Shown: positions 3,769 to 21,310, counted from the first letter of the stretch. The stretch: DNA of 21,310 bases from a virus (IMGVR_UViG_3300033156_000901:1-21310); one strand, 5' to 3'. Notes: generated by a model not told the origin, from the letters alone. Numbers and translations are program-made.

Positions 3769-3780
3769 CTCCTGCCTCCT
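3739..3780 (-). repeat. 27-base tandem repeat duplicating ribosome site and start codon
   Basis: Read on the minus strand, AGGAGGCAGGAGATGGAAAG (first ATG 3768) is followed 27 bases later by AGGAGGCGGAGATGGAAAGG (second ATG 3741). The unit is in frame and encodes MERLG-KEAE and then MERLV. Either start, or both, may be used. Confidence 0.75.
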
Positions 3781-3789
3781 TGCACTTAT

Positions 3790-3818
3790 AATATACACCT
3801 AGTGCTGCCCTTTGTCAA
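3790..3818 (-). promoter_or_regulatory. Strong sigma-70/A-type promoter of the left operon
   Basis: On the minus strand the -35 box TTGACA (3818-3813) is a perfect match. A 17-base spacer leads to TATATT (3795-3790). Transcription should start near 3783, leaving a short leader with AGGAGG before the ATG at 3768. The first operator palindrome ends 8 bases upstream of the -35 box. Confidence 0.75.
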
Positions 3819-3825
3819 GAGCGGA

Positions 3826-3839
3826 GGGACAAATGTCCC
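3826..3839. promoter_or_regulatory. Operator palindrome 1 (left-promoter side)
   Basis: GGGACAAATGTCCC is a perfect inverted repeat of GGGACA around a 2-base centre. It lies 7 bases beyond the left -35 box and 16 bp centre to centre from operator 2, about 1.5 helical turns. It probably binds the 63-residue HTH protein encoded at 3899-4090; that assignment is inference. Confidence 0.65.
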
Positions 3840-3842
3840 TGT

Positions 3843-3854
3843 GGACATCTGTCC
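3843..3854. promoter_or_regulatory. Operator palindrome 2 (regulator-promoter side)
   Basis: GGACATCTGTCC carries the same GGACA-NN-TGTCC half sites as operator 1. It lies 7 bases upstream of the right-facing -35 box. Two matching sites placed mirror-fashion between divergent promoters suggest shared control of both directions by one dimeric regulator. Confidence 0.62.
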
Positions 3855-3861
3855 TAAGACC

Positions 3862-3890
3862 TTGCCCAGCGCCACCTTTCCGGTTATCAT
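3862..3890 (+). promoter_or_regulatory. Right-facing promoter for the regulator gene, probably leaderless
   Basis: TTGCCC (3862-3867), a 17-base spacer and TATCAT (3885-3890) match the consensus at 4/6 and 5/6. The start of transcription would be near 3897, and the regulator ATG is at 3899. No Shine-Dalgarno site precedes that ATG. The message would be leaderless, as lambda cI made from PRM is. Confidence 0.5.
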
Positions 3891-3898
3891 CAAGCGCT

Positions 3899-4090
3899 AT
3901 GAACGGTAAGGCACTTAAGCAGGCAAGGAGACGGGCTGGGTTGACCCAGGAGGAGCTGGCCGCGCGGCTGGGATGCTCGCGCCGAGCGATCGCCAGGTGG
4001 GAGAGAGGCGAAGTGAGGCCACTTAGGGTGTTCTGGGAGAAACTAGAAAAGGAGTTGGACATCAATATGGAAAGGATCGTCAATGGCTGA
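3899..4090 (+). CDS. Cro/C1-type HTH transcriptional regulator (63 aa)
   Basis: A minimal helix-turn-helix protein, essentially one HTH_3 domain (residues 4-53). ALKQARRRAGLTQEELAARL is followed by the recognition region GCSRRAIARWERGEVRP. There is no dimerisation or cleavage domain, so it resembles Cro or a plasmid-type repressor rather than a LexA-like CI. The ATG at 3899 is chosen over the upstream in-frame ATG at 3812 because the extra residues would read through both operators and the promoter and do not look like protein. It has no ribosome site. It overlaps the ParB-methyltransferase gene by 8 bases. Its likely targets are the two palindromes at 3826-3854. Confidence 0.82.
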   Translation: MNGKALKQARRRAGLTQEELAARLGCSRRAIARWERGEVRPLRVFWEKLEKELDINMERIVNG

Positions 4091-5351: not shown

Positions 5352-5743
5352 GTATGGAAGAAAGATATGGCACTCGCGACCTAGCCTATTCAGCATGGCA
5401 TCGAATCCTCGATCCTTCTCTGCATTATATTGACTTGGATGCCATTGAGTACTGTGCGCAATGCAAGGAGCCTTTGGCTCTTTTCGAGTTAGCTCAAGAT
5501 GTTGGACAGGGTTGGAAGGCAACTACTGTCTTGCGCAAGCTTGCTCGCAAAGCCCGACTTCCCGCTTATCTCGTGTTCTGGAAGAAAGAAGGAGATGAGA
5601 TCGTACAATTGCGGGTTCGAGAGGTTTGGCCTTGCTATGGTCAGGAAAATACCATGAGTCCAGCTGAATACGAACAGTGGCTCTTATCACTCAGAGAACA
5701 GCACGACTGTGATGATGGACCCGAGCAAGATCGATGGTTCTAA
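5348..5743 (+). CDS. Hypothetical phage protein with CxxC pair
   Basis: A 131-residue protein, start overlapping the methyltransferase stop (ATGA). Its first half has YIDLDAIEYCAQCKEPLALF, a single CxxC pair, followed by ELAQDVGQGWKATTVLRKLA. The middle is beta-rich (LPAYLVFWKKEGDEIVQLRV) and the end acidic (HDCDDGPEQDRWF). The mix of a helix with basic residues and a short beta sheet faintly recalls small nuclease-like folds, but no catalytic motif is convincing. Coupled translation suggests it works with the methyltransferase. The hairpin at 5751-5797 follows. Confidence 0.7.
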   Translation: MSMEERYGTRDLAYSAWHRILDPSLHYIDLDAIEYCAQCKEPLALFELAQDVGQGWKATTVLRKLARKARLPAYLVFWKKEGDEIVQLRVREVWPCYGQENTMSPAEYEQWLLSLREQHDCDDGPEQDRWF

Positions 5744-5750
5744 CTTGGTT

Positions 5751-5797
5751 CTGGAAGAGCAAAGCCTAGCGCTTGGGCTAGGCCTTGCTCTTCCCAG
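5751..5797 (+). terminator. Long hairpin after the methyltransferase pair (terminator-like)
   Basis: CTGGAAGAGCAAAGCCTAGC (5751-5770) pairs with GCTAGGCCTTGCTCTTCC (5777-5794), extended by CAG. It leaves a 6-base loop, one mismatch and one bulge. No T-run follows, so it may be a processing or bidirectional structure rather than a simple intrinsic terminator. Its right arm contains the -35-like element of the next promoter. Confidence 0.6.
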
Positions 5798-5812
5798 CGG
5801 GAGCCTTATAAT
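5785..5812 (+). promoter_or_regulatory. Possible promoter overlapping the hairpin
   Basis: A perfect TATAAT (5807-5812) follows a weak TTGCTC (5785-5790) with a 16-base spacer. The -35-like element lies in the 3' arm of the hairpin, and the -10 box in the loop of a second small hairpin (GGGAG...CTCCC, 5799-5818). The start would be near 5819, just before AGGAGGTGATCCC and the ATG at 5833. Confidence 0.38.
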
Positions 5813-5832: not shown

Positions 5833-6153
5833 ATGCAGGAGTATACTACAGAACAAGCAGAGAGGCAAGAGGGGAGGATCTCAATCCCCCCTTTTGTGTT
5901 GGAGCAGTTGGAGCCACTCCTAGGCGAGATCCTTGAAAAGCTCACCTGGCTTTCGCTGCAATACAATCGGACAGAACCCGCCATTGAAGAACAGCTGATC
6001 AGGCTGGAAGATGCGATAGGCAGCCAAGCTGAGGACATATACAAGTTGAAGAGAGAGATAGAAGATCTAAAGCGGGAGCTGGGCCAGGCTCGAAGGGACC
6101 AGCCTCCCGAACCAAAAAAGAAGAAAGTCCCCAAACCAAAAGGCTACATTTAG
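5833..6153 (+). CDS. Coiled-coil phage protein with basic tail
   Basis: A 106-residue protein. After a polar start and ISIPPFVLEQLEPLLGEIL, residues about 60-92 form an evident coiled coil (EDAIGSQAEDIYKLKREIED, then LKRELGQARRD). The tail is basic and proline-rich (PEPKKKKVPKPKGYI), suited to binding nucleic acid or a partner. The ribosome site AGGAGGTGATC is a near-perfect anti-SD complement, implying strong expression. It lies 12 bases before the RepA-like ATPase, so it may be a partner of the helicase or initiator. No family recognised. Confidence 0.72.
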   Translation: MQEYTTEQAERQEGRISIPPFVLEQLEPLLGEILEKLTWLSLQYNRTEPAIEEQLIRLEDAIGSQAEDIYKLKREIEDLKRELGQARRDQPPEPKKKKVPKPKGYI

Positions 6154-6165
6154 AAAGGAGTCTTT

Positions 6166-7395
6166 ATGGCAGAAGAAGGGAAAGCTATTTTTGAAGGAAC
6201 AGGCACATCTTTTCAGTACAGGTATCCTCCCGCAGGGATAGCCATCAAGATCCGCTCTCCTAAAATTCATTCTGATGGCAGATTGACTGCGCTACTGCGC
6301 TTTTCTTCCGATTCAGGCTTTGTGATACCGGGAAGCGGACTGATCAACCTGGCAGCACCGCGGACCAGGGCCAGTCTAGCCAGGGAACTGGAAACAGAAT
6401 TCCCGACTGGAGTCTGGCCACATATCTTGGACGATCTTTATAATCGCTTGGAAACCCGCCTGTTAGAAGGCGAACCTGCGAGATTGATCTACCCTGACGC
6501 GGAGTGCCTGGATCCCCCTTATTTAGTTGAGCCACTTTTACCTTTGGACATGCCGACTGTCTTTTATGGCGCTGGCGGTGTGGGAAAAGGATGGCTCGCT
6601 CTTTTAGTTGCTAAAGCTATCATTACAGGCGAGTCTCCCAGAGGTCTGAACCTGACAGTGAAGCAAATGGGGCCTGTCTTGTATCTTGATTGGGAATCAT
6701 GCTATGAGGACCTGCATGCGCGCTGGACCCGGGTTTCAGCTGACCGCCTTAATGGGAGTCTAATTTATAGGCGCTGCGCCGGACCGCTGGCGAATGATGT
6801 CGAATATATTCAAGGTCTGATCTTGGAAACGAACCCGGTGCTCGTGATTGTCGACTCAGCTGGTCTGGCTGCCGGCGGCGACCTTAACTCGGTGGAGTCT
6901 GCAACTGAACTATACAGAGCAGTCCGCGAATTAGGTCGGACCACCCTGATCATAGCGCACTCCCCGAAGCATGGGAACTCGATCTTTGGAAGTGTGTATT
7001 TTTGGAATCTGGCCAGGATGGTCTGGGAAGTAAAAGCCGAACCGAAGGATAATGAGAATGAATTGGTGATCGGAGTGTCATGTGGGAAGTCGAACATCGG
7101 ACCCAAGCGCAAGCCTTTTGGAATCTTGCTGCGATTTGAAGGCGATAGACTCGAAACTTATCCAGCCGAACTCCAAAAGACCTTTGGACTAGCCGAACTT
7201 GAAGGGACGACAAAGCGCATCCTTTATTTCCTGCGCCATGAAGGAAAGGCGACTGTGGATGAGATCGCCGACAGTCTTGGCGTAGCAAAGAAGACAGTCC
7301 AAAACCATCTTTATGATCTCAGGCGATTAAAAGCAGTGATGAAGTTCCCAGATGGCAGATGGGGGATGCTGGTCGAAGAAGAAGCTCCATTTTGA
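6166..7395 (+). CDS. RepA-like AAA ATPase (AAA_25) with C-terminal winged helix
   Basis: A 409-residue replication ATPase. The N-terminal 120 residues are of unclear fold. Walker A is GAGGVGKG at 135-142, with Gly in the place of the usual Ser/Thr after the lysine, as in some AAA_25 proteins. VLYLDWES and Walker B LVIVDSAG (D230) follow, then TLIIAHSPK and SVYFWNLARMVWEV, typical of RepA/KaiC-like hexameric helicases. The last 60 residues are a winged helix (ILYFLRHEGKATVDEIADSL, then GVAKKTVQNHLYDL). It could bind the repeat-rich region just downstream and act as initiator or helicase. AAAGGAG precedes the ATG. Confidence 0.83.
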   Translation: MAEEGKAIFEGTGTSFQYRYPPAGIAIKIRSPKIHSDGRLTALLRFSSDSGFVIPGSGLINLAAPRTRASLARELETEFPTGVWPHILDDLYNRLETRLLEGEPARLIYPDAECLDPPYLVEPLLPLDMPTVFYGAGGVGKGWLALLVAKAIITGESPRGLNLTVKQMGPVLYLDWESCYEDLHARWTRVSADRLNGSLIYRRCAGPLANDVEYIQGLILETNPVLVIVDSAGLAAGGDLNSVESATELYRAVRELGRTTLIIAHSPKHGNSIFGSVYFWNLARMVWEVKAEPKDNENELVIGVSCGKSNIGPKRKPFGILLRFEGDRLETYPAELQKTFGLAELEGTTKRILYFLRHEGKATVDEIADSLGVAKKTVQNHLYDLRRLKAVMKFPDGRWGMLVEEEAPF

Positions 7396-7600
7396 CATGC
7401 ACAAAATGGTTTTGGGTGTTGCCCGGGGCAAATGCCAAAATGGCCGGGCAAGGGTTGCCCCGGGCAATGCCCGGCGATCAGCGAAAATGCAGATGGGAAC
7501 GATACCCTGTGCGGGCAACCCGGCGGGTATGACTTGCCCTGCCCTCCTAGGGTACCCTTTAGGGTACCCTAGGGCAAGGGCAAGGTACCCGGGGCAAGTT
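7396..7600. repeat. Iteron/palindrome-rich intergenic region, candidate replication origin
   Basis: No convincing gene lies between the ATPase stop and the ATG at 7664. GGGCAA occurs at 7426, 7446, 7462, 7513, 7572, 7578 and 7592, and TTGCCC at 7419, 7455 and 7534: ten copies in about 180 bp. The 13-mers at 7419-7431 and 7455-7467 are exact reverse complements. ATACCC...GGGTAT (7502-7530) encloses CGGG-CAA-CCCG. CTAGGGTACCCT (7547-7558) and AGGGTACCCTAG (7561-7572) form a perfect inverted repeat, each arm itself containing a palindrome, and GGTACC recurs at 7584. It directly follows a RepA-like gene. A regulatory or termination role is also possible. Confidence 0.55.
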
Positions 7601-7609
7601 AATAGGGTC

Positions 7610-7638
7610 TTGACAAGCGAGCGAAAATGTTGTATATA
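7610..7638 (+). promoter_or_regulatory. Strong rightward promoter
   Basis: TTGACA (7610-7615), a 17-base spacer and TATATA (7633-7638). Transcription would start near 7645, followed by GTGCAAGGAAAGGAGGCAGA before the ATG at 7664. The initial transcribed stretch shares GTGCAAGG and AGGAGGCAG with the left-operon promoter. It should drive the long run of small genes up to the terminase. Confidence 0.7.
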
Positions 7639-7663
7639 GTAGGTGCAAGGAAAGGAGGCAGAG

Positions 7664-7885
7664 ATGGCCAAGATCAGCGCTAGAGGAGATCGGGAGCTGG
7701 AGCGGGTGAAGTTTGAGGATGGAGTGGCCTACATCCTCACAGAACAAGGCCGGGTACTCCTCCGTCACAGCGATGGCAAGATAAATCTCCTGGCTACGCG
7801 CAAGCAAGTGCGCGATCCGCGGGACTACTTTAAGCGGTTGGTGGCTATGCGAGCGCAATATGTGGCGGTAAAGGAGAGGATCTGA
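7664..7885 (+). CDS. Small hypothetical phage protein
   Basis: A 73-residue basic protein beginning MAKISARGDRELERVKFEDG, with a short beta-rich core (VAYILTEQGRVLLRHSDGKI) and a basic helical end (DPRDYFKRLVAMRAQYVAVK). The ATG at 7664 is chosen over the in-frame GTG at 7643 because AGGAGG lies 6 bases before it and the GTG lies at the predicted transcript start. It is the first gene after the strong promoter at 7610 and is coupled to the next gene (TGATG). The function is not recognised. Confidence 0.75.
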   Translation: MAKISARGDRELERVKFEDGVAYILTEQGRVLLRHSDGKINLLATRKQVRDPRDYFKRLVAMRAQYVAVKERI

Positions 7886-8070
7886 TGGACGAGCGAGATA
7901 TTCAAAGAGAGAACGCTGAGATGTGGGCTCGTGAGGCCGAGGCCATGGCAGACGAACTGCGGGCTGAGGCCTTGCGATGTGTCAAAGATGATCCGCTGCG
8001 AGCTCTGGAACTCTGCCACCGGGCTGGATTCTTGTGCATAGCGGCGAAATACAGGAGATTGGAGGCGTGA
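7885..8070 (+). CDS. Small acidic helical protein
   Basis: A 61-residue, almost entirely helical protein (AEMWAREAEAMADELRAEAL, then DPLRALELCHRAGFLCIAAK) with two cysteines. Its start and stop each overlap a neighbour (TGATG at both ends), so it is translated as part of a coupled string. The helix pattern resembles a single helical-repeat pair but is too short to classify. Function unknown. Confidence 0.68.
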   Translation: MDERDIQRENAEMWAREAEAMADELRAEALRCVKDDPLRALELCHRAGFLCIAAKYRRLEA

Positions 8071-8165
8071 TGAGATACTCTCGCGAGGACGTTATTGTCG
8101 GAGGCTTGTGGCTTTTGAGCTTTCTCATGCTGGCCATCGTGGCTGGCCTGCGGCTGGCGAGTTAA
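8070..8165 (+). CDS. Single-pass membrane peptide (31 aa)
   Basis: A 31-residue frame, MRYSREDVIVGG followed by a hydrophobic stretch LWLLSFLMLAIVAG and a short basic end. GGAGG lies 4 bases before the ATG, the start overlaps the previous stop (TGATG), and the next gene's ribosome site follows directly. One transmembrane helix with a charged N-terminus would place it in the inner membrane. Holin-like or superinfection-related roles are possible but unsupported. Confidence 0.6.
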   Translation: MRYSREDVIVGGLWLLSFLMLAIVAGLRLAS

Positions 8166-8175
8166 GGAGGCAGAT

Positions 8176-8502
8176 ATGAGATGGGGATCCCAACTGAAAG
8201 TCCCGTTTGAGCCCGGTGAGCTTGTGCAAGTATCCTTGTTTACAGAATCTGCCCCTGGCCTCTGCGAAACTGTAATCGGAGAAGTCATGCAAGCCGGGGA
8301 GGACTTCATTCGTATTCGCTGGGGAAGTAATGATGAGCAAGAACACCGTCTCATGCCATGGTGGAGCGGGCCTATGCTTGTCAGACCTGTGATCAGAGGC
8401 TATCCTTATGAGCGAAAGCTATCGGACTTTGCATGGGCATTGTTCTGGATCTGGTATCTTCCTTATCGGCTAAGGAGGAGGCTATGCAAGTTGTGCCGAT
8501 GA
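8176..8502 (+). CDS. Hypothetical protein with C-terminal hydrophobic helix
   Basis: A 108-residue protein preceded by AAGGAGG. The N-terminal 60 residues look like a small beta barrel (FEPGELVQVSLFTESAPG, then VIGEVMQAGEDFIRIRWGSN). The C-terminus has an aromatic hydrophobic segment, FAWALFWIWYLPYRL, followed by a strongly basic tail (RRRLCKLCR), suggesting membrane association. The end overlaps the nuclease gene by 19 bases. No family recognised. Confidence 0.68.
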   Translation: MRWGSQLKVPFEPGELVQVSLFTESAPGLCETVIGEVMQAGEDFIRIRWGSNDEQEHRLMPWWSGPMLVRPVIRGYPYERKLSDFAWALFWIWYLPYRLRRRLCKLCR

Positions 8503-8777
8503 CAGAAAAGGAATTCCTGCAACAGGTACGGGATTTGGCGGACCTTTGTGGTTGGCTCGTTTATCACACCTACGATTCGAGGAGGTCACCCGAGGGCTTT
8601 CCCGATCTCGTCTTAGTCCGCGGTGACAAAGTTATTTTCGCGGAACTGAAGAGCGAGAGGGGGAGAGTAAGGCCCGAGCAACGGATGTGGCTGGACGCTT
8701 TGGAAAAGGTGCGGAGGGCGGAGGCTTGCTTGTGGAGGCCGAGCGATTGGGATAGGATCGTGGAGGTTTTGCGGTGA
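8484..8777 (+). CDS. VRR-NUC domain nuclease
   Basis: A 97-residue stand-alone VRR-NUC protein (PD-(D/E)XK superfamily). After a helix (TEKEFLQQVRDLADLCGW) comes GFPDLVLVRGDKVIFAELKS, carrying the catalytic D and the E-x-K pair, then a conserved QRMWLDAL helix and a last strand ending in IVEVLR. Phage VRR-NUC proteins are usually structure-selective nucleases thought to act on branched DNA, such as Holliday junctions, before packaging. The ATG at 8484 is chosen because AAGGAGGAGG precedes it; the longer frame from 8433 runs through the upstream gene. It sits in the rightward operon ahead of the packaging genes. Confidence 0.85.
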   Translation: MQVVPMTEKEFLQQVRDLADLCGWLVYHTYDSRRSPEGFPDLVLVRGDKVIFAELKSERGRVRPEQRMWLDALEKVRRAEACLWRPSDWDRIVEVLR

Positions 8778-8793
8778 GAAAGGAGATCATGCA

Positions 8794-9174
8794 ATGGGTG
8801 TTATGCTGATAGTTGCGGTCCCTTTCGTGCTGGTGGCGATATATACGCTATGGCAAAGAAAGCGATGGGGTTGGATCTCCCTCGGAGTTTTCGCTTCTGT
8901 GATCGCCTTAGGCATCCTTTTGGTGGCTGGTCTGTTCACTCTAGGAGTGAGTCGCCTTGCGATCAATGGGGAAGTGAGGGAATTCGTGGCACTGCGAGCT
9001 ACCGTCGAAGCGGCAAGACAAAATGAACATATTTCTGAACTGGAACTGGCTGCGTTACAGCAAAAGATCATAGAAGTGAATAAGTGGCTGGCGTCCACGC
9101 AGTACTATCGGCGTCTGTTCTGGACTAACATTTTCTACCCGCCGGTGGTGCTTGAGCTGGAGCCGATCCGATGA
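8794..9174 (+). CDS. Two-helix membrane protein of unknown function
   Basis: A 126-residue protein. Two N-terminal hydrophobic helices (MLIVAVPFVLVAIYTLW, and ISLGVFASVIALGILLVAGL) are separated by the basic turn QRKRWGW. A soluble tail follows (LAINGEVREFVALRATVEAA, then a helix to KWLASTQYYRRLFWT). The tail resembles a short conserved phage protein of unknown role. AGGAG lies about 9 bases before the ATG. A second ATG at 8789 is out of frame and ends quickly. A holin is one possibility, but the long cytoplasmic tail is unusual for that. Confidence 0.7.
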   Translation: MGVMLIVAVPFVLVAIYTLWQRKRWGWISLGVFASVIALGILLVAGLFTLGVSRLAINGEVREFVALRATVEAARQNEHISELELAALQQKIIEVNKWLASTQYYRRLFWTNIFYPPVVLELEPIR

Positions 9175-9204
9175 ACCTGTATGAAAGGGGTATAATAAAT
9201 TGAG

Positions 9205-9807
9205 ATGGCTTGGGTTAAATATGCGGCGCAAGTTGAGATTGCTCGCCAGCGCTACATAGAGGATCCGCGGAAGCCCACGATCCGGGAGCTGGCGGATGAG
9301 CTCGGCGTGCCTGTCGAGTCCCTCTATAAGTACTCGGCGAAAGAGAAATGGCGGGAGAAAAGGCGCAAGCACACCGAAAAGATGCTGGCAGAGACCCGCA
9401 AGCAACTGAGACAAGAGACGGAGCAAGTCATAGCCCGGAGCGAAGATTCGCGGGAAAAGTCGCGAGAGATTTTGAAATTCCTCCGCGACGGACTGACGAA
9501 GGCCTGGCAAGTCGCGCTCGCCCACATGGTCATGCCAAAGAACGCCAGTCCGGAAGAGAAGGCGGCTATCCTCCGCAGGTGGGAGGAGCTTTCACCAAAC
9601 GAACTCTTGCGATTCATTCACCAAGCGCCGAAGGCGCTGACGGACATCATCAAGGCGCTCGAGCTCCTGGAAGGTGGTCCGGCAGAAAGGTCGGAGAGCA
9701 CGTTCTGGATCGAGGGGGAGGTGAGAGAGAGGCTGACCGACAAGGAATTTCTCAAGATGGTTGAGGAGTTCGCCAAATCGCGAAAGCTGAAAGTGGGGTT
9801 GTCGTGA
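9205..9807 (+). CDS. Probable terminase small subunit
   Basis: A 200-residue protein with an N-terminal HTH (YIEDPRKPTIRELADELGVP, ESLYKYSAKEKW) followed by a long basic coiled coil (REKRRKHTEKMLAETRKQLR) and helical segments, the usual plan of phage small terminases. The C-terminal part (LSPNELLRFIHQAPKALTDI) also fits. The large terminase lies 2.5 kb downstream, farther than usual. The start has no close ribosome site; GAAAGGGG is 15 bases away. A phage HTH regulator is the main alternative. Confidence 0.62.
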   Translation: MAWVKYAAQVEIARQRYIEDPRKPTIRELADELGVPVESLYKYSAKEKWREKRRKHTEKMLAETRKQLRQETEQVIARSEDSREKSREILKFLRDGLTKAWQVALAHMVMPKNASPEEKAAILRRWEELSPNELLRFIHQAPKALTDIIKALELLEGGPAERSESTFWIEGEVRERLTDKEFLKMVEEFAKSRKLKVGLS

Positions 9808-12189: not shown

Positions 12190-12303
12190 ATGGTTGAGAA
12201 AGAACCGCTCGACCGAGCGATCGATAAAGACGAAGAGAAGACCGGACGAAAGCCCACTTCGCGCGAGTGGGCCAAGTGGGCTGGGTACGATTGCGGAGAG
12301 TGA
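12190..12303 (+). CDS. Small hydrophilic peptide before the terminase (37 aa)
   Basis: A 37-residue charged peptide, MVEKEPLDRAIDKDEEKTGR then KPTSREWAKWAGYDCGE, ending two bases before the terminase ATG. AAGG lies 9 bases before the start; a longer form from GTG at 12157 is also possible. Its position suggests a packaging accessory, but the evidence is only an open frame with protein-like composition and good spacing. Confidence 0.42.
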   Translation: MVEKEPLDRAIDKDEEKTGRKPTSREWAKWAGYDCGE

Positions 12304-12305
12304 GA

Positions 12306-13700
12306 ATGGGAACTCTTACTGTCGACCATCCCGCGCTGGATCTCGTGGATCCGACTGGCTGGATTCGCAAAGTGACCGGTTCCCAACCATGGTCTCGTCA
12401 AGAGGAGATCCTGAAAGAGCTGTTTCGTTCCCGCCGTCTTGTGATCCGGTCCGCGAACGCCGTCGGAAAGTCTTGGACTGCGGCCCAAGCGGTAGTTTTG
12501 TTCGCAACCCACTTCAGGCCCGCGGTCGTGGTCACCACCGCACCCACGTTCAGACAAGTGCGAGACATCATCTGGCGAGAGATTCGGAAGACTTGGCGGG
12601 CCGCACTTAACCGAGGCTACAGGCTAGGGGAGGAGCCGCTCCAGACCACGTGGCGGCCCGATCCCAACGTGCTCGTAACCGGGATCGCGGTGCCCGACTG
12701 GGCCACCGCCAACTTGCAGGGTCTGCACGCCGAGCATGTCCTAGTAGTGGTTGATGAGGCTCAGGGGCTTTCGTGGGACGTGTGGACCGCCCTGCAGACC
12801 CTCCTCCGAGGCCAGTTCTCTTACCTTCTCATGATCGGGAACCCTACGGTTCCGGAAGGGCCTTTCTATGAGGCGTTCCGTGATCCACACTTCGCTAAGA
12901 TGAGCATCTCCGCTTTGGAGTGTCCTAACGTAGTGGAGGGCAAGATAGTGACCCCAGGCCTGGTGACCAAGGAAGACGTAGAGGAGATCAGACAAAGGTA
13001 TGGAGAAGACTCCTGGGAGTGGAAAGTATGGGTCCTGGGTGAATTCGCGGAACGAAGTGAGGAAGTCTTAGTTGCGCTGTCGTGGGTAGAAAAGGCTGGA
13101 CTGAGGAGCAAGCCTGGAGAAGGAAGAGTAGAAGTAGGAGCGGACATAGCTCGCTATGGCGGCGATCACACGGTTTTCGTGGCGCGCAAGGGAGGCTGCG
13201 CTTTTGCGTTGCAAGAGTGCCCGCCGGGAAGCACGATGGAGACGGCGGGGCGGTTAATCGCTTTCGCGCGCAAGGTCAAGGCCGAGCTAATCAAGGTGGA
13301 TGTCACTGGAGTCGGCGCAGGAGTGGTGGACCGGTTAAAAGAACAAGGCTATCCTCTCGTTGGAGTGGAGTTCGGTGGGAGGCCGATAGAGAGGGACCGG
13401 TTCGAAAACAAGTCGGCCGAGATGTGGTGGAACCTGGCTGAGATGCTGCAAAAGGGAGAAGCTTGGGGCCCCGTGTTCAAAGACCGGAACGTTGTGCGGG
13501 ATCTAACCGGCCGGAAGTACAGCTACACGTCATCTGGGAGGGTCAAGCTTGAATCGAAGGAACAAATGCGGAAGCGGGGCGTTCCTTCGCCAGACTGGGG
13601 TGACGCGGTGGCGTTGGCCTACGCTGCCGTGGACGTGCGGAGGCCGGACGTGCCTTTGCCGATAGGTATAGGGCGGGAATCGCCGTGGCTGAGAAAATGA
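12306..13700 (+). CDS. Terminase large subunit
   Basis: The packaging motor ATPase and nuclease, 464 residues. Walker A-like RSANAVGKS is at 48-56, Walker B VLVVVDEA with D150 and E151. The C-terminal nuclease has GADIARYGGDHTVF with D280 and D287, VDVTGVGAG with D332, and PDWGDAVALAYA with D433, the acidic set expected of an RNase H-fold terminase nuclease. The full usual length is present. The ATG at 12306 has GGAGAGTGAG just upstream; the longer frame from 12267 overlaps the small peptide gene and is less likely. It is followed by two cargo-like genes and then the portal, the usual packaging order otherwise. Confidence 0.92.
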   Translation: MGTLTVDHPALDLVDPTGWIRKVTGSQPWSRQEEILKELFRSRRLVIRSANAVGKSWTAAQAVVLFATHFRPAVVVTTAPTFRQVRDIIWREIRKTWRAALNRGYRLGEEPLQTTWRPDPNVLVTGIAVPDWATANLQGLHAEHVLVVVDEAQGLSWDVWTALQTLLRGQFSYLLMIGNPTVPEGPFYEAFRDPHFAKMSISALECPNVVEGKIVTPGLVTKEDVEEIRQRYGEDSWEWKVWVLGEFAERSEEVLVALSWVEKAGLRSKPGEGRVEVGADIARYGGDHTVFVARKGGCAFALQECPPGSTMETAGRLIAFARKVKAELIKVDVTGVGAGVVDRLKEQGYPLVGVEFGGRPIERDRFENKSAEMWWNLAEMLQKGEAWGPVFKDRNVVRDLTGRKYSYTSSGRVKLESKEQMRKRGVPSPDWGDAVALAYAAVDVRRPDVPLPIGIGRESPWLRK

Positions 13701-14551
13701 GGATTCGGTTTCTGGTGAGGAGAGGCGATTACGAGATCGTGGACCGGGCCCATGTCGAGCCGATTCTTGAGCACTTGGAAGAAAGCGAGATCGCTCACGA
13801 ACCTTCTTTCGAAGCCTTAAACGTGTCGCTGTCATGGGAAGTTTTCCCGAAGGCTGACGTTTTCATGTCCCACGGCTTAGCTGACAAAAATTGGCGGAAC
13901 GCGGACAAGATGTCAGGCTATGGTCATGTCCTAGTCTCGGGTTCTGCGTGGAAAGAAAAGCTGGTGAGCCAGGGCATGTCGCCGGACGCGATCTTAGTGG
14001 TAGGGTATCCTTTCCTTGATCCGGTCTGGGATCTCGAAAGGTCCCGCGAGCTCCTCGTCTGGGCCCCGACCCACAAAGCGACCTCCGACGTTACCACAGA
14101 AGGTAGGCTTTCTGAAGCATTGCTGGATCGGCTGAGAAAAGACTTCCCTTTGGAAACAGTTTCCCACCCCGTTGGTTCTAAGCGGCTGTCTAGGGATGTC
14201 TTGCCCCGGGCAGCGGTCGTGATAGCGGATGCTGGCTCCACTCTTTACGAAGCTTGGGCCTTTGGCGTTCCGGTGGTCTTCCCGGACTGGCTTGTTGAGG
14301 AGGCCATTTTGAAAAAGTGGCCCGGCTCATTTGAAGCTACCATCTATGGGAGGGGCTTGGGATGGCATGCCAACTCAGAGGGGGAGCTGATTGACTTGGT
14401 CAGGGAAGTTTGGGATACGGGTGAGCTAGGGACTGGCGTGGAGGAGTTCATGGAGGGTATACTTCCATCGGAACTCCGGGGATGCTCGGGCGAAGTTGCG
14501 GCCAGGGAGCTGATGCGGCTGCGCGATCAGAAAGCGGAGGTGGCGAATTGA
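13697..14551 (+). CDS. CDP-glycerol glycerophosphotransferase-like (GT-B) protein
   Basis: A 284-residue protein similar to the Glyphos_transf/TagB-TagF family, which transfers glycerophosphate in teichoic acid synthesis. Motifs: FMSHGLADKNW with H59, VVGYPFLDPVW, WAPTHK (122-127), SHPVG (156-160) and IADAGSTLYEAWAFGVP (176-191), matching the HG, GYPR-D, PTxR, HP and SDYSS stations of the family. It lacks the large N-terminal part of TagF. The start could be ATG 13697 (overlapping the terminase stop, ATGA) or GTG 13685. A surface- or DNA-modifying glycosyltransferase is the alternative. Its place between terminase and portal is unusual. Confidence 0.68.
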   Translation: MRIRFLVRRGDYEIVDRAHVEPILEHLEESEIAHEPSFEALNVSLSWEVFPKADVFMSHGLADKNWRNADKMSGYGHVLVSGSAWKEKLVSQGMSPDAILVVGYPFLDPVWDLERSRELLVWAPTHKATSDVTTEGRLSEALLDRLRKDFPLETVSHPVGSKRLSRDVLPRAAVVIADAGSTLYEAWAFGVPVVFPDWLVEEAILKKWPGSFEATIYGRGLGWHANSEGELIDLVREVWDTGELGTGVEEFMEGILPSELRGCSGEVAARELMRLRDQKAEVAN

Positions 14552-15234
14552 AGGTTCTAGTGATTGGCTGTGGAGGAATAGGAAGTGCGATAATAAGGGA
14601 GCTGGTGGCTTGCGGCGATGATGTCGTAGCGACCTATGCGACGGGGGAAGGGGCAGTCAGAGCGATGGAACTAGCCCGCATATTCGGGATCAAGACAGAG
14701 AAGTTTCAGGTCAAGGATCCGGTCAAGACGTCCGTCTGGTTGGCCTCTTTTATGGATCCCGGCAAACCTTTCGAGGGGGTGGTTTATGCGGCTGGCGTCG
14801 TTTACCCCGGCGCTCTAACCGAAGTGTCTCTGGAACAAGCTGAAGAGACGTTCCACGTTAACTTTTGGGGCCCTTATGTACTCCTTCGGGAGGCTCCCAA
14901 GCTTCTGTTAAGCTCTGGTAAGATCATTCTTCTTTCATCGTCCACGAGCTTAAGAGCCTCTCCTGGACTTGCTGCTTATGCAGCTTCAAAGGCTGCGCTC
15001 AACTCTCTCGTTCTTTCTGCCGCTGAGGAGCTCGCCGAGTATGGCATCCGAGTCTACAATCTCTGTCTAGGACGAGTGGCCACGCCCTTAAGACAAAAAA
15101 TAGCGCCTGAGGAGGACCGGTTCGAGATAATGCAACCCGAGCAGGTGGCGAAGGTGGTAGCCTTTATCTTGTCGGAGGCCGGGGACGCGCTGTCTATGTT
15201 TCCGGTCAGGGTACACATGGGGCCATACGTTTAG
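14548..15234 (+). CDS. Short-chain dehydrogenase/reductase (SDR)
   Basis: A 228-residue classical SDR oxidoreductase. The cofactor loop is VIGCGGIGSA (residues 5-14), a YAAGV motif stands in for NNAG, then catalytic N105 (NFWGPY), S131 (ILLSSST), Y144 and K148 (YAASK). All four catalytic residues are present, so it should be an active NAD(P)(H) enzyme. It starts at TTG 14548, with GGAGGTGGCGAA before it, and overlaps the previous stop (TTGA), so it is coupled to the glycerophosphotransferase-like gene. Together they may make or attach a sugar or polyol. Substrate unknown. Confidence 0.83.
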   Translation: MKVLVIGCGGIGSAIIRELVACGDDVVATYATGEGAVRAMELARIFGIKTEKFQVKDPVKTSVWLASFMDPGKPFEGVVYAAGVVYPGALTEVSLEQAEETFHVNFWGPYVLLREAPKLLLSSGKIILLSSSTSLRASPGLAAYAASKAALNSLVLSAAEELAEYGIRVYNLCLGRVATPLRQKIAPEEDRFEIMQPEQVAKVVAFILSEAGDALSMFPVRVHMGPYV

Positions 15235-15709: not shown

Positions 15710-15891
15710 CAAACGAGAAGATGTGGCCGTTTGGCGAAGGAACTGAGTTTGAGGAGAACTTAGGCAAGTTCGCTCGCTTGCTTCGCTGTCTATTCGACGC
15801 CTTAAAGGACGCGGGCTTTACCGAGTCGCAGGCGTTCGAGCTGATAAAAGATTTTCTGAGGAGTTCGCTGGCGGCGGCGAAGGGTGTCTGA
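15706..15891 (+). CDS. Small helical protein upstream of the portal
   Basis: A 61-residue protein with a helical core (EENLGKFARLLRCLFDALKD, GFTESQAFELIKDFLRSSL). It overlaps both neighbours (ATGA at its start, TGATG at its end), so it is translated with the portal. AGGGAGGAGG precedes the start. Possibly a portal or head accessory; not recognised. Confidence 0.67.
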   Translation: MTNEKMWPFGEGTEFEENLGKFARLLRCLFDALKDAGFTESQAFELIKDFLRSSLAAAKGV

Positions 15892-17168
15892 TGACCGAGA
15901 AGAAAGAGCCGGATTTTAAAAGTCTGGGAGTGCCAGGTCTCTCGATCTGGTCCGGCATCTTACGCGAGGAATGGCTTTCCGAGCTTCAGGGGAAAAAGGG
16001 CCGGAAAGTCTGGCGCGAGATGCGGGACAACGACTCTACCGTCGGCTCCATCCTCTTTGCCATTTCTCACATCCTCAGAGGTGCTCAGTGGTCCGTAGAA
16101 CCGGGAGGGGACTCCAGAGCGGACAGGGAAGCTGCCGATTTTCTCGAGCAGTGCCTCTATGATATGGAGACTCCATGGACCGAGTTCATTTCCGAGGTCC
16201 AGAGTTTTCTCGTCTACGGGTTCGCGGTATTTGAGATCTTGTGGAAGGTTCGGGAAGGTCCGGATGCTCCTCCATCGGGTCGTTCTAAGTACAGTGACAA
16301 ACGAATCGGATGGCGCGACTTTTCTATCCGGGCTCAGGAGACGATCACGCGGTGGGATATGGATTCTACTGGGCACCTCAAGGGATTATGGCAGGTAGCT
16401 CCCCCCGATTACAAGGAGCGGTATATCCCAGCAGATAAGTTCCTTTTGTTTAGAACTGAAGCACATAAAGGAAATCCGGAGGGCCGCAGTATACTTCGCA
16501 ATTGCTACTTGTCATGGTATTTTAAGAAAAACTTACAAATTTTGGAAGGAATTGGAGCAGAAAGGGATCTTGCCGGACTGCCGGTCCTGTACGTGCCTTA
16601 TGATTACTTGACCGACCCTGACAAAGAAAAGGACAGAGCATGGTTGCAAGACCTGGTTGAGAACATTCGCCAAGATGAAGAAGCTGGCCTGCTTTTGCCG
16701 ATGGACCCGTACGCCGAAGGTGGACCTCGGGAACTCATGCGCCTGGAGCTGATCTCATCTGCTGGCAGCAAACAGTTTGAGACCTCGGAGATAATCCAAC
16801 GATATGATCATGCCATAGCTCAGACCGTCTTGGCGGATTTCGTTTTGCTTGGCTTAGAGAGCAAGGGCTCCTACGCTTTGGCCCGAGAGAAGCGAACTGT
16901 GTTCGAGACCGCGCTCATAGCCTGGCTGGATTCTATCGCGGATACGATCAATGCCAAGGCAGTTCGTCAGTTATTTGAATTTAATGAATTTGGCATCGAC
17001 AATCCGCCCAAGCTGGTGGCTCGGCTTCCGCGGGTGCCTGATCTTGACGAGGTGACCAAGCTTATCGATGCCTTGAGCAGAGCGGGCGCCGAGCTCTTCC
17101 CGGATGAGGATCTTGAGAACGCCTTGAGGGCGCAAGTGGGGCTCCCGGCAAAGAAAACGGAGGTGTGA
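15891..17168 (+). CDS. Phage portal protein (DUF935/Mu gp29-like)
   Basis: A 425-residue portal, the dodecameric ring through which DNA enters the head. The N-terminal part (WREMRDNDSTVGSILFAISH, then GAQWSVEPG) and the middle (FLVYGFAVFEILWKVREG, and DKFLLFRTEAHKGNPEGRS) match the DUF935/Mu gp29-like family. The region IIQRYDHAIAQTVLADFVLL and the end of the helix SYALAREKRTVFETALIAWL are also typical. Length is normal. It overlaps the previous gene (TGATG) and is followed by a Mu gpF-like gene, the order found in Mu-type heads. Confidence 0.87.
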   Translation: MTEKKEPDFKSLGVPGLSIWSGILREEWLSELQGKKGRKVWREMRDNDSTVGSILFAISHILRGAQWSVEPGGDSRADREAADFLEQCLYDMETPWTEFISEVQSFLVYGFAVFEILWKVREGPDAPPSGRSKYSDKRIGWRDFSIRAQETITRWDMDSTGHLKGLWQVAPPDYKERYIPADKFLLFRTEAHKGNPEGRSILRNCYLSWYFKKNLQILEGIGAERDLAGLPVLYVPYDYLTDPDKEKDRAWLQDLVENIRQDEEAGLLLPMDPYAEGGPRELMRLELISSAGSKQFETSEIIQRYDHAIAQTVLADFVLLGLESKGSYALAREKRTVFETALIAWLDSIADTINAKAVRQLFEFNEFGIDNPPKLVARLPRVPDLDEVTKLIDALSRAGAELFPDEDLENALRAQVGLPAKKTEV

Positions 17169-17170
17169 AG

Positions 17171-18055
17171 ATGGCCCTCCGCTCCAGCCTCCTTTCCTCC
17201 TGTAAGACACCCCACCCGAGAGCGGAGGGCCTATTTAAAGCGAAGGGCAAGAGGGTTCCTGTCAAAGAAGCGCGTGAAGCTTTCATCGACGCCTTTGAAG
17301 AAATCCAGCGCAAGGTAAAAAGCAAGGACCTCAGAGAAGCCTTGGAAGAAGAAAAACCTAGTGCCTTCATTCGGGATCTTAAGAAGGCAGGGATCGTCAG
17401 TGCCGCCCTACTTGGGGCTTGGAAGGTATTTAATCCGCACTTCATCTACCACGCCAACCGGGAGGTCATTTACTGGGGCTGGGATCGGCGTTTGGTTCCT
17501 GGGAACTCTTGGGTCCGCGCTTGGCTAAAGAAATACGGACTCAGTCGAGTGAAGGACTTATCTTCCGAAACGATCGAGGGCATCAAAGTCGCCCTAGACC
17601 AGGCGTTAGAGCGAGGCGAGAACCCGTTCGTGGCGGCTCGGCGGATCAGGTCGATGATCGGGCCCAATGCGCGTCAGATGCGAGCCATCGAGCGGTATTA
17701 TTCTAAGCTCTTGGATCAAGGAGTCACGCAGAAAAGGGCGCGGGACCTGACTCAAAAGCTGGCGGATAGGTACATCAGGGAGCGGGCCGAGACGATAGCT
17801 AGAACGGAGCTGATTGCAGCCGAAAACCACGGGCGATTGGAGTCTTGGAACCGGGCGGTAAGAGCAAAGCTGATCGGAAAGGAGTCCGAGAAGGAATGGG
17901 TAACGGCATTTGATGAAAGAACATGTTTTCGATGTAGTCAATTAGATGGAGTGCGAGTCAAGTTAGATGAAACTTTCCCGGGTGGAGTGATTTCTCCGCC
18001 ATTGCACCCATTATGTAGATGTTCTATCAATCTGATCCCTGCTCCTGTGCGGTGA
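17171..18055 (+). CDS. Mu gpF-like head morphogenesis protein
   Basis: A 294-residue protein of the Phage_Mu_F (SPP1 gp7) family, a minor head protein needed for capsid assembly. The diagnostic C-terminus is present: AETIARTELIAAENHGRLES, then EWVTAFDERTCFRCSQLDG and PPLHPLCRCSINL, with the paired cysteines and HPLCRC. The N-terminal half is helical and basic. The ATG at 17171 is chosen over GTG 17165 because GGAGGTG lies about 7 bases before it. The last 150 bases are AT-richer than the rest. It follows the portal directly. Confidence 0.88.
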   Translation: MALRSSLLSSCKTPHPRAEGLFKAKGKRVPVKEAREAFIDAFEEIQRKVKSKDLREALEEEKPSAFIRDLKKAGIVSAALLGAWKVFNPHFIYHANREVIYWGWDRRLVPGNSWVRAWLKKYGLSRVKDLSSETIEGIKVALDQALERGENPFVAARRIRSMIGPNARQMRAIERYYSKLLDQGVTQKRARDLTQKLADRYIRERAETIARTELIAAENHGRLESWNRAVRAKLIGKESEKEWVTAFDERTCFRCSQLDGVRVKLDETFPGGVISPPLHPLCRCSINLIPAPVR

Positions 18056-18120: not shown

Positions 18121-18387
18121 ATGAAGCTAGAAGAGAAAGTTGATGACGAGAAGAACGCCCTAAGGCGCTGTGGGACTTGCCGATATTGGAAGCCCACTAA
18201 GCCTGGGTTGGGTGAGACTCTGCAACGGACTAAAGAGCAACTTCACATCCAGGGTGGCTTAATCAACGAACCAGTCGGCATCTGCATTAAAGAGGTTCAA
18301 GTCCCGTCTTCGTACTTTAAAGCTTCATTCATCGCTGCCAGTGAAGGCGGAACTTGCCCGTTTTGGGAACCTTCTTCGCCATCGTAA
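18121..18387 (+). CDS. Cysteine-rich small protein (possible zinc or Fe-S site)
   Basis: An 88-residue protein with RRCGTCRYWKP at the start, GICIKEV in the middle and GTCPFWEP at the end. These four spaced cysteines could bind zinc or an iron-sulfur cluster. A similar CxxCRYW-C-C arrangement is seen in several short phage and bacterial proteins of unknown function. The likely ribosome site AAGGGAGG is 16 bases before the ATG, too far to be ideal. It is the first gene after the promoter at 18060. The 53 bases that follow before the next ATG hold only AGAAGG at 18422-18428. Confidence 0.65.
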   Translation: MKLEEKVDDEKNALRRCGTCRYWKPTKPGLGETLQRTKEQLHIQGGLINEPVGICIKEVQVPSSYFKASFIAASEGGTCPFWEPSSPS

Positions 18388-18440: not shown

Positions 18441-21310
18441 ATGGCTACGATTCCGGAGCGGGTTCGCGGACTGTACCTGGTCGCGCCGCACGGCTCGCTG
18501 TTAGTTTCAGGCGAGAAGCGGGCTGTGGTCAAGGCGCGCAAGTTCAAGATGGCGGGCGAGTGGCTCGCCATCTTGGAGGATCAAAGGCTGCTCGGGGTGG
18601 CCAAGTTCAAGGCTCCCAAGGCTCTCACGCTCGAGGAGTTCCGGAAGACTTACGATCTGCACAGGGTCTCGCAAGAGGAGAGAGTCGCCTGGTGGCCCGG
18701 GAAGAGGAAGCTCTGGCTTTATCCCGTTGATGAGGTCTACGCTTATCCTACCTCGATTGAGTACGACGTGCCGCCGGGGACTCAGACCTTCCTCAAGGAG
18801 GTTGTCCTTCCGAGCCGCGACAAACTTGTGAAAGTCGAGCCGATTGAGAAATTGCATCTTGAAGAGTTCAGAGCAGAGGGAATAGATTATGATCTAAAAC
18901 ATCCCAAGGCAAGGAGACAGCAACTGATTGCCGACCTAAGGTATTGCCTGCCGCCTGGCAGTTTCGTTGTCAAGAATCCAGTTTCAGTTACTCCAATTGA
19001 GGATGTGAAGATTGGCGACGTAGTTTGGGCTTCAGAACCTGCTGCTGTGCATCAGAAGTATAAGCACAGTCACAGTGGAGAACTTATTGAGATAAAGCCG
19101 TTTGGACTACCATCAGTCCGTTTAACGGAGAATCATCCAGTCTTGACGTGCCGAATCCAGTATCGCCCCTATTCTACAAAAAGAGAAAGGGAAGCTGCCT
19201 TCTTGAGAAAAGAGAATGGCCCGATCCGAGGGCGAAAAATAATGATGGAAGGCAAGCCTCGTATCGCGTTTTACAATCTTAATGAAAAAATCTGGAAGCG
19301 AGCGGATGAACTCAAAAAAGACGATCTTCTTTTCGTGCCTTTTCCGAGAGTTTCCGAGCAGGTGACTCTTGATCTGAAGGCATATCTCCCAAAATGGCAT
19401 ACAGGGCTTGACGGTTCTCTTCTTTATAGGCCAAGGCGACCGGGAGAACACCATCGACGATTAAAAACTCGTTGGATTCTGCTTGATAAGACCCTTGGTT
19501 TCTGTGTAGGCTTATTCCTTGCCGAAGGCGACACGAGTTGTGGGCAGGGACTTCGCCTTTCACTCCATGAGAGCGAAAGGAAATTGGGGGAGCGTTTTCT
19601 AGACGGTATTGAGAAGATTTTTGGAATCCAGGGCAGTATCTCACCAGGGAAACGGCATTCGCTCGTTATACGGGTCAGTTCAAAGTATCTTGCTTCTTTG
19701 TTCACAAAGTGGTGTGGGAAAGGTGCACGGGAGAAGCACTTGCCGGATTGGGTTTGGGCTGCTCCAAAAGCTTGTAAGCTAGGCCTTCTTGAAGGCCTTT
19801 TCTTGGGAGACGGGACAGCATCTTGGGGAGATTCTCACTATGTGGGCCAACGCTATGTGACTGTTTCGCCGCACCTAGCATACAGCACATGGCTGCTCTT
19901 AGGAACTCTAGGCATATTTGGAAAGCTGAGCTCTAGAAAAATCAAGAGCGGTTTTCAGTCGAATGCTGAATTGGCTTTTGAAATTGGGCTTCGTGGGACT
20001 TTTTACAACGTACGGAGCCATATAGTTTTCTTTGATGATGACGGTGTTTGGATCCCTATCCGAAAGATTCGACGAGTGCCTTATGCCGGGCCAGTCTTCA
20101 ATCTTGGAACTTCATCGGGGTCTTATTGCGTTCCTTTCCTGGTCCATAATTGCGGAAATTCGGCTTATCCGCGACTAAAGGCCGGAAAGAAATGGGGAGA
20201 TTGGACTCTCGACCTTGTTCTCCGGTACTTTGGAAAGATAGTTGATACGCTGAGGACAAAAATTGATCCATCTTACTTCCCTGAGCCGCCTCCAGGAGAT
20301 CCGAAGTGGAAAACCAGTTGGTGGCAATGCTACAAGGAAGCCAAGGAAAAGGGCTACCTCAAGACCAAGCCCGTCATCAAAGGCTTGCCGAAGCCGATTA
20401 ACTCGCCTGGAGGGAAAGATCCATGGCTAGACATCCTTTTGGAAAAGACCCCGCCTCATAAGGTATATGTCGAACCCTATGCAGGGGGCGCGAGTCTGTT
20501 CTGGGCCAAGGAGCCTTCCGAAGTTGAGGTCTTAGCGGATATTAATCCTGACATCATTGCCTTGTATAAATGGCTTCAAACAGCAGATGACGAGGATTTC
20601 GCTTGGATGCGCTCTCAGACTTGGAGCTATTCTGAAGCTAGATACAGAGCTTTACTCAAAAGCAAGCCAAGAAAATTGAGGGAGAGAGCTTATCGTGCCC
20701 GTTATCTTTATCTCTTTTCCAAACGTGGTGATCCAGTTGACTTTCCAAGACGCGATGCGATTTCATGGAAGGAACCGGCTAGGTCATTCCTTGCTAATTT
20801 AGAGAGGTATCGAGAAAGGCTCAAGGGAGTCCATATTCTTGAAGAAGATGCTTTCAAGGTCATGAAACGCTATGATTCTACGGATACGTTTTTCTATCTT
20901 GACCCTCCTTGGAAACCAATAGCACAAGGCAGGGAATGGAAAGAATTTGATCCAGAACGATTCGCCGCAATTGTAAAATCGCTAAAAGGGAAAGTTCTCA
21001 TAAGTTATCAGGGCGATCTTGATCTTGGGCGCAATTTCCATCGTTACACTTATGAACGTAGTGGAGGAGGCATGACAATGAGTTCGAGGCAAACGTTGTA
21101 CTGGAACTATTCGATCACAAAATCCAGGCAAGCCGCCCTGGGCCTCGTCTACCGCAATGGCGAGATCCTCTTGATCAAGCGCAAAAACGAGCCTCGGGTC
21201 TGGAGTCCTCCCGGAGGTTTCCTTTCGGGCCGCGATCCTGTCACCGCGGCTCTAGAGGAAGTCCAAGAGGAGACAGGCGTGCTGGCCGATCCCGTGATGG
21301 AGGAGCCCTG
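18441..21310 (+). CDS. ASCH/PUA-like, intein, Dam methyltransferase and Nudix fusion (partial, 3' end beyond window)
   Basis: An open frame of at least 956 codons without a stop; TAG at 18429 bars a longer start. Residues 1-168 include LLVSGEKRAVVKARKF and LLGVAKF, reminiscent of the ASCH signature GxKxxExR with K for E, then HRVSQEERVAWWPGKRKLWL. Residues 169-570 are a complete intein (separate entry). After the splice point come GNSAYPRLKAGKKWGDWTL and a linker, then a D12-class Dam domain: PINSPGGK (651-658), VEPYAGGASLFW (677-688), ADINPDI, DPPW (821-824) and an ending QTLYWNYS. A Nudix domain follows (GLVYRNGEILLIKRK, box 925-947). Expected activities: N6-adenine methylation and nucleotide hydrolysis. 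The ASCH call is tentative; Dam and intein are firm. Confidence 0.85.
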   Translation, partial: MATIPERVRGLYLVAPHGSLLVSGEKRAVVKARKFKMAGEWLAILEDQRLLGVAKFKAPKALTLEEFRKTYDLHRVSQEERVAWWPGKRKLWLYPVDEVYAYPTSIEYDVPPGTQTFLKEVVLPSRDKLVKVEPIEKLHLEEFRAEGIDYDLKHPKARRQQLIADLRYCLPPGSFVVKNPVSVTPIEDVKIGDVVWASEPAAVHQKYKHSHSGELIEIKPFGLPSVRLTENHPVLTCRIQYRPYSTKREREAAFLRKENGPIRGRKIMMEGKPRIAFYNLNEKIWKRADELKKDDLLFVPFPRVSEQVTLDLKAYLPKWHTGLDGSLLYRPRRPGEHHRRLKTRWILLDKTLGFCVGLFLAEGDTSCGQGLRLSLHESERKLGERFLDGIEKIFGIQGSISPGKRHSLVIRVSSKYLASLFTKWCGKGAREKHLPDWVWAAPKACKLGLLEGLFLGDGTASWGDSHYVGQRYVTVSPHLAYSTWLLLGTLGIFGKLSSRKIKSGFQSNAELAFEIGLRGTFYNVRSHIVFFDDDGVWIPIRKIRRVPYAGPVFNLGTSSGSYCVPFLVHNCGNSAYPRLKAGKKWGDWTLDLVLRYFGKIVDTLRTKIDPSYFPEPPPGDPKWKTSWWQCYKEAKEKGYLKTKPVIKGLPKPINSPGGKDPWLDILLEKTPPHKVYVEPYAGGASLFWAKEPSEVEVLADINPDIIALYKWLQTADDEDFAWMRSQTWSYSEARYRALLKSKPRKLRERAYRARYLYLFSKRGDPVDFPRRDAISWKEPARSFLANLERYRERLKGVHILEEDAFKVMKRYDSTDTFFYLDPPWKPIAQGREWKEFDPERFAAIVKSLKGKVLISYQGDLDLGRNFHRYTYERSGGGMTMSSRQTLYWNYSITKSRQAALGLVYRNGEILLIKRKNEPRVWSPPGGFLSGRDPVTAALEEVQEETGVLADPVMEEP
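18945..20150 (+). mobile_element. Complete LAGLIDADG homing-endonuclease intein (402 aa)
   Basis: A self-splicing intein inside the fusion gene. It starts at Cys1 (CLPPGSFVV) after the extein DLRY and ends HN (H401, N402) followed by extein Cys (CGNSAYP). Splicing block B has TENH (T61, H64). LAGLIDADG motifs GLFLAEGD (E194) and GLFLGDGT (D289) keep their acidic residues, HLPDWVWAAP and LGTLGIFGKL fit blocks D and H, and VFNLGTSSGSYCVPFLVHN is block F/G. Every residue needed for class 1 splicing is present and both endonuclease acids are intact, so it should splice and may home. Confidence 0.93.

Follow-up and report, generated by a model that had tools for sequence, protein, structure and literature searches.

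The polyprotein gene and its head-module setting

The window analysed here is an entire virus record of 21,310 bases from an environmental metagenome, and is probably a genome fragment. At its 3' end one plus-strand frame runs through 956 codons without a stop and is open at the contig end, so that it encodes at least 956 amino acids. The frame contains, in order, an ASCH domain, a conserved helical domain named LGNS here, which is split by an intein, a DNA adenine methyltransferase (Dam) and a Nudix domain. Terminase, portal and Mu F-like genes lie upstream on the same strand, in line with the head-module location given in the original prediction. The features are as follows.

12267-13700, plus strand: terminase large subunit (phrog_2, E 3.8e-44)
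15891-17168, plus strand: portal gene, upstream of the polyprotein (phrog_113, E 4e-83)
17165-18055, plus strand: head morphogenesis (Mu F-like) gene, upstream of the polyprotein (phrog_3517, E 1.7e-30; PF04233 over cut-off)
18121-18387, plus strand: small Cys-rich ORF of 88 aa, flanked by the MuF-like gene and the polyprotein (conserved in L003)
18441-21308, plus strand: polyprotein frame (in-frame homologues in L002, L003, L005, L007 and L018)
18465-18803, plus strand: ASCH domain, residues 9-121 (HMM built here, E 5e-38; AF2 fold of the L002 homologue)
18846-18944, plus strand: N-terminal part of LGNS, to ...IADLRY (HMM built here; separate profile, E 3e-12)
18945-20150, plus strand: intein with DOD homing endonuclease, residues 169-570 (LAGLIDADG_3; PI-PkoII match, E 1e-6; empty site in L018)
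20151-20375, plus strand: C-terminal part of LGNS, CGNSAYPRLK...WGDW...SWWQCYKEA (profile E 9e-30; conserved in 39 contigs)
20403-21113, plus strand: D12-class DNA adenine methyltransferase (Dam), an optional module (PF02086, E 1.4e-14; E. coli Dam 2g1p, E 6e-6)
21126-21308, plus strand: Nudix domain, incomplete at the contig end (PF00293, E 4.4e-8; Nudix box GGFLSGRDPVTAALEEVQEETGV)

The window most likely holds the first half of a multi-enzyme polyprotein from the head module of a tailed virus. The original prediction had described one chain of ASCH, Dam and Nudix parts; these three are present, but the frame is truncated, and in relatives the chain goes on to a nucleotidyltransferase (NTase) and an ATP-dependent DNA ligase. 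The small Cys-rich ORF gave no Pfam or PHROG match. Elsewhere in the window, a second DNA methyltransferase (4083-5351, plus strand; N6_N4_Mtase, E 1.4e-19), fused to an HTH and a weak ParB-like part, stands apart from the head module. The gap between terminase and portal (13685-15234, plus strand) holds a weak Epimerase_2-like gene and a short-chain dehydrogenase (E 6e-31), which are unusual cargo at this position.

The fusion is found again in an independent contig, L002, where ASCH, LGNS, Dam, Nudix and NTase follow each other in frame; the chain is thus a single one, and the ASCH, Dam and Nudix parts are not always separate genes. Between the window and L002 the dN/dS ratio is 0.11 for ASCH and 0.02 for Nudix, dS having reached saturation in Dam and LGNS, and since it is 0.00-0.11 in every domain with measurable dS, the modules of the polyprotein are under purifying selection. 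An assembly chimera is ruled out because L002 repeats the fusion and L018 carries an empty intein site, and the in-frame fusion in L002 together with the low dN/dS rules out chance or a pseudogene. The probability that an assembly or sequencing artefact joined separate genes is negligible: the window frame does run off the contig end and the ligase part of L004 has a frame break, but L002 repeats the fusion independently, dN/dS is low, and the same downstream order recurs in L003, L005, L007, L009 and L018.

The N-terminal domain of the polyprotein has no Pfam match. The L002 homologue (245 aa), aligned with homologues from other loci, was predicted with AF2 (pLDDT 85), and its fold superimposes on the Zymomonas ASCH protein 5gus with Z 12.8 and an rmsd of 2.5 Å over 122 residues, while 2dp9 is matched with a Foldseek E of 4.6e-7. 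Because the best matches of the predicted fold among solved structures are these ASCH proteins, the earlier assignment to an ASCH/PUA-like fold is supported at the level of the model.

The intein begins with C169 and ends with HN569-570, followed by C571 as the +1 residue. The Pfam model LAGLIDADG_3 matches residues 445-504 (E 2.8e-8), and the intein-splicing match is sub-threshold. The boundaries, which agree with those originally proposed, are fixed by the precise empty site in L018, GATAT/TGCGGGAATTCG, with the +1 cysteine codon included, as compared with the filled site of the window, GGTAT/TGCCTG...CATAAT/TGCGGAAATTCG. A C or S first residue, the HN end, a C, S or T at +1 and an empty site are thus all present. 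The insertion point is the LRY/CGNS motif, the most conserved motif of LGNS; the intein had been recognised in the original prediction, and this conserved domain between ASCH and Dam had gone unnoticed. Further intein-like insertions were seen at several different sites of the head-module genes of this group (L020:12953-15010; the phosphoesterase (PE) region of L013 and L025; the PE gene of L005/L007; the ligase of L023/L029), including the neighbourhood of the HxDxR motif of PE. The head operon of the group is intein-rich.

The Pfam D12 methylase match covers residues 656-865. GGK (20409), VEPYAGG (20469) and DPPW (20901) are found where they had been reported, the last two corresponding to the F/YxGG and DPPY/W motifs of D12 methylases, and the Dam assignment is sustained. 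In L002 Dam has the same place, between LGNS and Nudix. It is absent in eight close relatives (L003-L007, L008/L018, L009, L012), where LGNS directly joins Nudix, and it is fused in the other relatives L025, L027 and L052. PADLOC matched methylase and homing endonuclease models in the window protein, one methylase match being PD-Lambda-5_B, and gave no match in the polyprotein, PE-XkdF and TROVE proteins of relatives. For Nudix, also named in the original prediction, the Pfam match covers residues 896-949, with the box at 21213 as reported earlier, and the domain is full-length in L005 (PF00293, E 1.2e-10). Compared with GX5EX7REUXEEXGU, the metal-binding EVQEE is kept in the aligned copies. 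An apparent charge swap was observed in 7 of 7 aligned copies (the window and the L002-L018 relatives), with R for the glutamate of GX5E and E for the arginine of RE.

LGNS and its recurrent partners

The consensus of LGNS reads ...ADLRYLGNSAYPRLK..WGxW..YFAKIVDxLRS..SYWxCYxEAxKYM. Searched as a degenerate DNA pattern, the motif gave 20 viral loci; 35 loci, some of them the same, came from a profile scan. The domain has no Pfam match and no PDB sequence match; tblastn against 50,697 GenBank phage records gave no match, and it was not found in 393 + 380 prokaryote genomes (two phyla; a search without positive control). Predicted alone, LGNS folds with pLDDT 91. Comparison of this fold with the PDB returned nothing convincing (Foldseek best E 1.5), the best VIA Z of 4.6 being near chance for helical bundles, and so weak a result does not amount to proof that the fold is new. 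LGNS appears from its sequence to be an unrecognised viral domain, and as such it would mark the system in metagenomes.

In close relatives the chain ASCH-LGNS-Nudix-NTase-ligase ends at about 903 aa. The evidence for the ligase comes from these relatives, beyond the 3' end of the window: it matches Pfam DNA_ligase_A_M (PF01068, E 1.3e-17) and the DNA ligase 3gde (E 5.5e-7), and motifs I, III, IV and V (KxDG, D/E, EGxxxK, KxK) are conserved. In L018 the next gene starts at 2606, overlapping the polyprotein stop codon (2607-2609); its product has a LigD-type PE region and, at the C-terminus, an XkdF protease (PF14550, E 1.5e-26) with conserved H and S; the window ends before XkdF.

Modules were counted in 39 non-redundant LGNS contigs, many of them incomplete, with iterated HMMs built here. 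Ligase was found in 34, NTase in 31, ASCH in 30, PE in 29, XkdF in 23 and MBL in 19, while Nudix (8, in the window's lineage only) and Dam (7) were less frequent. The same loci had served to seed and iterate these HMMs, on which the weak modules (NTase, PE and some XkdF) partly rest; ligase, Dam, MBL and XkdF have independent Pfam support. In PE the HxDxR motif is invariant, and a profile comparison reaches E 1.3e-4 with the archaeal PE structure 3p4h; LigD_N is the sole family match (best E 1e-4, under the gathering score). The best Pfam match of the NTase is NTP_transf_2 (E 0.004, under cut-off), and G and DxD are invariant, so that this sequence-based assignment is considered probable.

The modules recur permuted and split over genes. 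L030/L050 have NTase-LIG-PE-LGNS-XkdF in a single chain of 1365 aa and L047 has ASCH-MBL-NTase-LIG-LGNS-Dam-PE in one frame of 2289 aa, while L052 spreads them over three genes (MBL-LIG-PE / Dam-NTase / LGNS-XkdF), as do L044-L046 (MBL-ASCH-LGNS-LIG / PE / NTase-XkdF). The core consists of LGNS, ligase, NTase and PE, with ASCH and MBL added in places, and it adjoins XkdF, with which same-chain fusions occur in at least six relatives (L021, L022, L027, L028, L030 and L031). This recurrent core beside XkdF points to repair or sealing of DNA ends, with Dam and Nudix as optional parts.

The position of the modules is conserved. In 14 of 14 records with a detectable portal, the distance from the portal gene downstream to LGNS, on the same strand, is 1.7-4.3 kb, and XkdF follows LGNS on the same strand, 46 b to 5 kb downstream or fused, in all 15 records where XkdF is detectable (5 of these being under Pfam's cut-off). 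Exactly one ATP-dependent ligase, inside the kit, is present in 18 of 20 records; the two lacking it are the window, which is truncated, and G013. No Ku match exceeded the cut-off in a set of 21 records, many of which are fragments; the only one, of 14 bits in G005, was far below it. The polyproteins and PE genes gave no Pfam match to AEP/Prim-Pol polymerase, and the NTase-like domain stands where this polymerase of LigD would be.

Some further observations were made in single loci. The N-terminal MBL domain of L023 and L034-L040 has lost the first histidines of HxHxDH in most copies (e.g. SSPDEDH), and L025 retains HSHPDH. Residues 1020-1123 of the L034 polyprotein match ATP-grasp (GARS_A) weakly, and further modules may therefore exist. 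In the 53-kb record IMGVR_UViG_3300021509_000001, the gene of a Ro60-like protein (15083-16720 of L020; TROVE E 2.8e-46, vWA_Ro60 E 1.6e-68) has the MuF-like gene on one side and the polyprotein on the other; TROVE was rejected as a regular partner, being seen in 1 of 32 records only. The ends of the same record, where L018 starts and L020 ends, share 152 of 156 bases, which suggests that the map is circular and that the polyprotein spans the junction of the two ends. Two contigs with 94% identity (best segment) to the polyprotein, L012 and L013, lie in MAGs, one assigned to a Candidatus Alkanophagales archaeon and the other to bacterium AUK014; they were the only two in the genome-contig scan, are too short to name a host, and their binning may be wrong.

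Comparison with described systems

No description of this kit was found in open-licence literature, in agreement with the view that the architecture is undescribed; when the polyprotein was searched against GenBank phages at the DNA and protein level, there were either no matches or weak ones to ligases. The closest described concept is that of polyvalent proteins (Iyer et al. 2017, PMC5512222), which are multidomain, are predicted to be packaged and injected, and have assemblin-like peptidases always at the C-terminus; their repertoire includes DNA adenine methylases and pol-beta NTases, with the Dar proteins of phage P1 as an example. The chains studied here are similar in having at least two disparate domains (ASCH, Dam and Nudix in the window, NTase and ligase in relatives), in being encoded among virion genes, the portal preceding and XkdF following them wherever these can be detected, and in having a C-terminal protease in some chains. 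They differ in their core of ligase, PE, ASCH and LGNS with XkdF. The text of PMC5512222 contains neither 'ASCH' nor 'XkdF', names ligases only as RNA ligases not found associated, and NUDIX only as a neighbour of InPase. The proteins scanned gave no Pfam match to zincin-like MPTase/ArdC-type hub domains, which are common in the polyvalent class and not obligatory.

A second likeness is to LigD of bacterial NHEJ, since a putative PE, an ATP-dependent ligase and a nucleotidyl-transferring module are joined in one chain or operon (NTase-LIG-PE in L030 and ANMV-1). Unlike in LigD, a probable pol-beta-type NTase replaces the AEP polymerase, Ku is not detected over cut-off, and the kit sits in a head operon with ASCH, LGNS and XkdF added. 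Among the GenBank records of phages and viruses, a PE could be detected in ANMV-1 (KP703175) alone. Its gene at 3200-5800 has the order NTase-LIG-PE, as in the kit, and is annotated only as 'ATP-dependent DNA ligase'; its authors infer an archaeal host, and their main text is without 'ligase' (Paul et al. 2015, PMC4372165). ANMV-1 differs in that LGNS and ASCH were undetected in the four genes tested and the prohead protease is elsewhere in the genome. Two neighbouring annotations in this record (L071) are likely wrong: by eye the 'MutT-like phage hydrolase' (1913-3193) reads portal-like, and a large Cys-rich hypothetical protein (5868-9368) ends in a MuF-like motif.

Profiles of a nucleic-acid enzyme that also span XkdF are present in PHROGs (phrog_13242, phrog_1530 and phrog_14859; Dam-XkdF and RNA ligase-XkdF), but these are two-part, and no ASCH, LGNS, PE or NTase was seen in them. 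The mycobacteriophages Omega and Corndog use NHEJ for their own genome with their own Ku and borrowed host LigD (Pitcher 2006, as cited in PMC7719229), unlike the virus here, which brings ligase and PE and in which no Ku was found. In a survey of about 3,000 actinobacteriophages there were no NHEJ components (PMC7719229).

Possible roles of the polyprotein

We regard as most likely, with about even chances, a head-associated, possibly injected kit of the polyvalent-protein kind for repair and sealing of DNA ends or nicks, whose delivery, processing and activity we infer. In its favour are the conserved ligase and PE motifs, the constant position between portal and XkdF, the same-chain fusions with XkdF, which support packaging indirectly, the location of the single ATP-dependent ligase inside the kit, the low dN/dS and the precedent of the polyvalent proteins. 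The intein would first splice out of the polyprotein, and the spliced chain would enter the prohead with the XkdF protease, fused or co-encoded, to be cut into separate enzymes during head maturation. Once freed, the enzymes would act on viral DNA: PE could clean 3' ends, the NTase could add or transfer nucleotides and the ligase could seal, while ASCH and LGNS might help with nucleic-acid binding or with docking in the head, Dam might mark the DNA against restriction and Nudix might clear nucleotide by-products. The kit would then probably serve to repair or join virion DNA that is nicked or linear, either inside the head or right after injection. XkdF-type proteases are presumably prohead proteases, so that enzymes fused upstream of XkdF would enter the prohead and be freed by cleavage, which would explain the drift of order and gene boundaries. 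Several points speak against this reading: in the window's lineage XkdF is in the next gene and not in the same chain; the kit ligase, as the only one per record, could simply serve replication; Ku gave no match over cut-off; the NTase and LigD_N matches are under cut-off; and part of HxHxDH is lost in most MBL copies. No cleavage site was identified in the polyproteins. If the packaged kit is real, there are tailed viruses that bring enzymes of their own for repairing and sealing DNA ends and build them in with the head, and head-operon ligases that so far have been annotated without context would have a function. Virion delivery is directly testable by proteomics, given the strict order of portal, kit and protease.

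The combination of PE, NTase and ligase resembles the end-healing and sealing steps of LigD. A more specific form of the packaged kit, which we hold only tentatively, is a LigD-like, Ku-independent end-joining kit that would be built into the prohead, processed by the maturation protease and delivered with the genome, in a class of tailed viruses with ANMV-1 as a relative. LGNS would dock it in the head or on DNA ends, and since the protease would release the parts, the domain order could change freely.

The main rival to the packaged kit, in our judgement rather unlikely, is intracellular repair, in which nicks in replicated DNA are sealed by the kit ahead of packaging or while it proceeds, and the place in the head operon reflects late timing only. 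It would fit with the kit ligase being the only ATP-dependent one in most records, where it may supply all ligation, and with enzymes on genes separate from XkdF in many relatives. In-chain fusion to the prohead protease, however, would place the enzymes inside the prohead, and the strict placement between portal and protease also argues against late timing only.

Readings outside DNA repair fit less well than either packaged or intracellular repair of DNA. Healing of RNA, such as cleaved tRNA, by ligase, PE and NTase after host defence is improbable. In its favour, most ASCH domains have links to RNA, the polyprotein of L020 has a Ro60/TROVE gene as its neighbour, and the RNA-ligase family profile phrog_14859 also spans XkdF; against this, the ligase resembles DNA ligases in its matches to both PF01068 and 3gde, TROVE is confined to a single record and a DNA methylase is among the optional partners. 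Still more improbable is the self-contained system of ASCH, Dam and Nudix for DNA or nucleotide modification and anti-restriction. This role had been suggested originally and is not upheld, although the window and L002 both have the three parts in a single chain and Dam is also fused in the other relatives L025, L027 and L052: Dam is missing in the eight close relatives and present in 7 of 39 contigs overall, Nudix is present in 8 of 39, and it is ligase, PE and NTase that recur as partners and, with LGNS, form the core.
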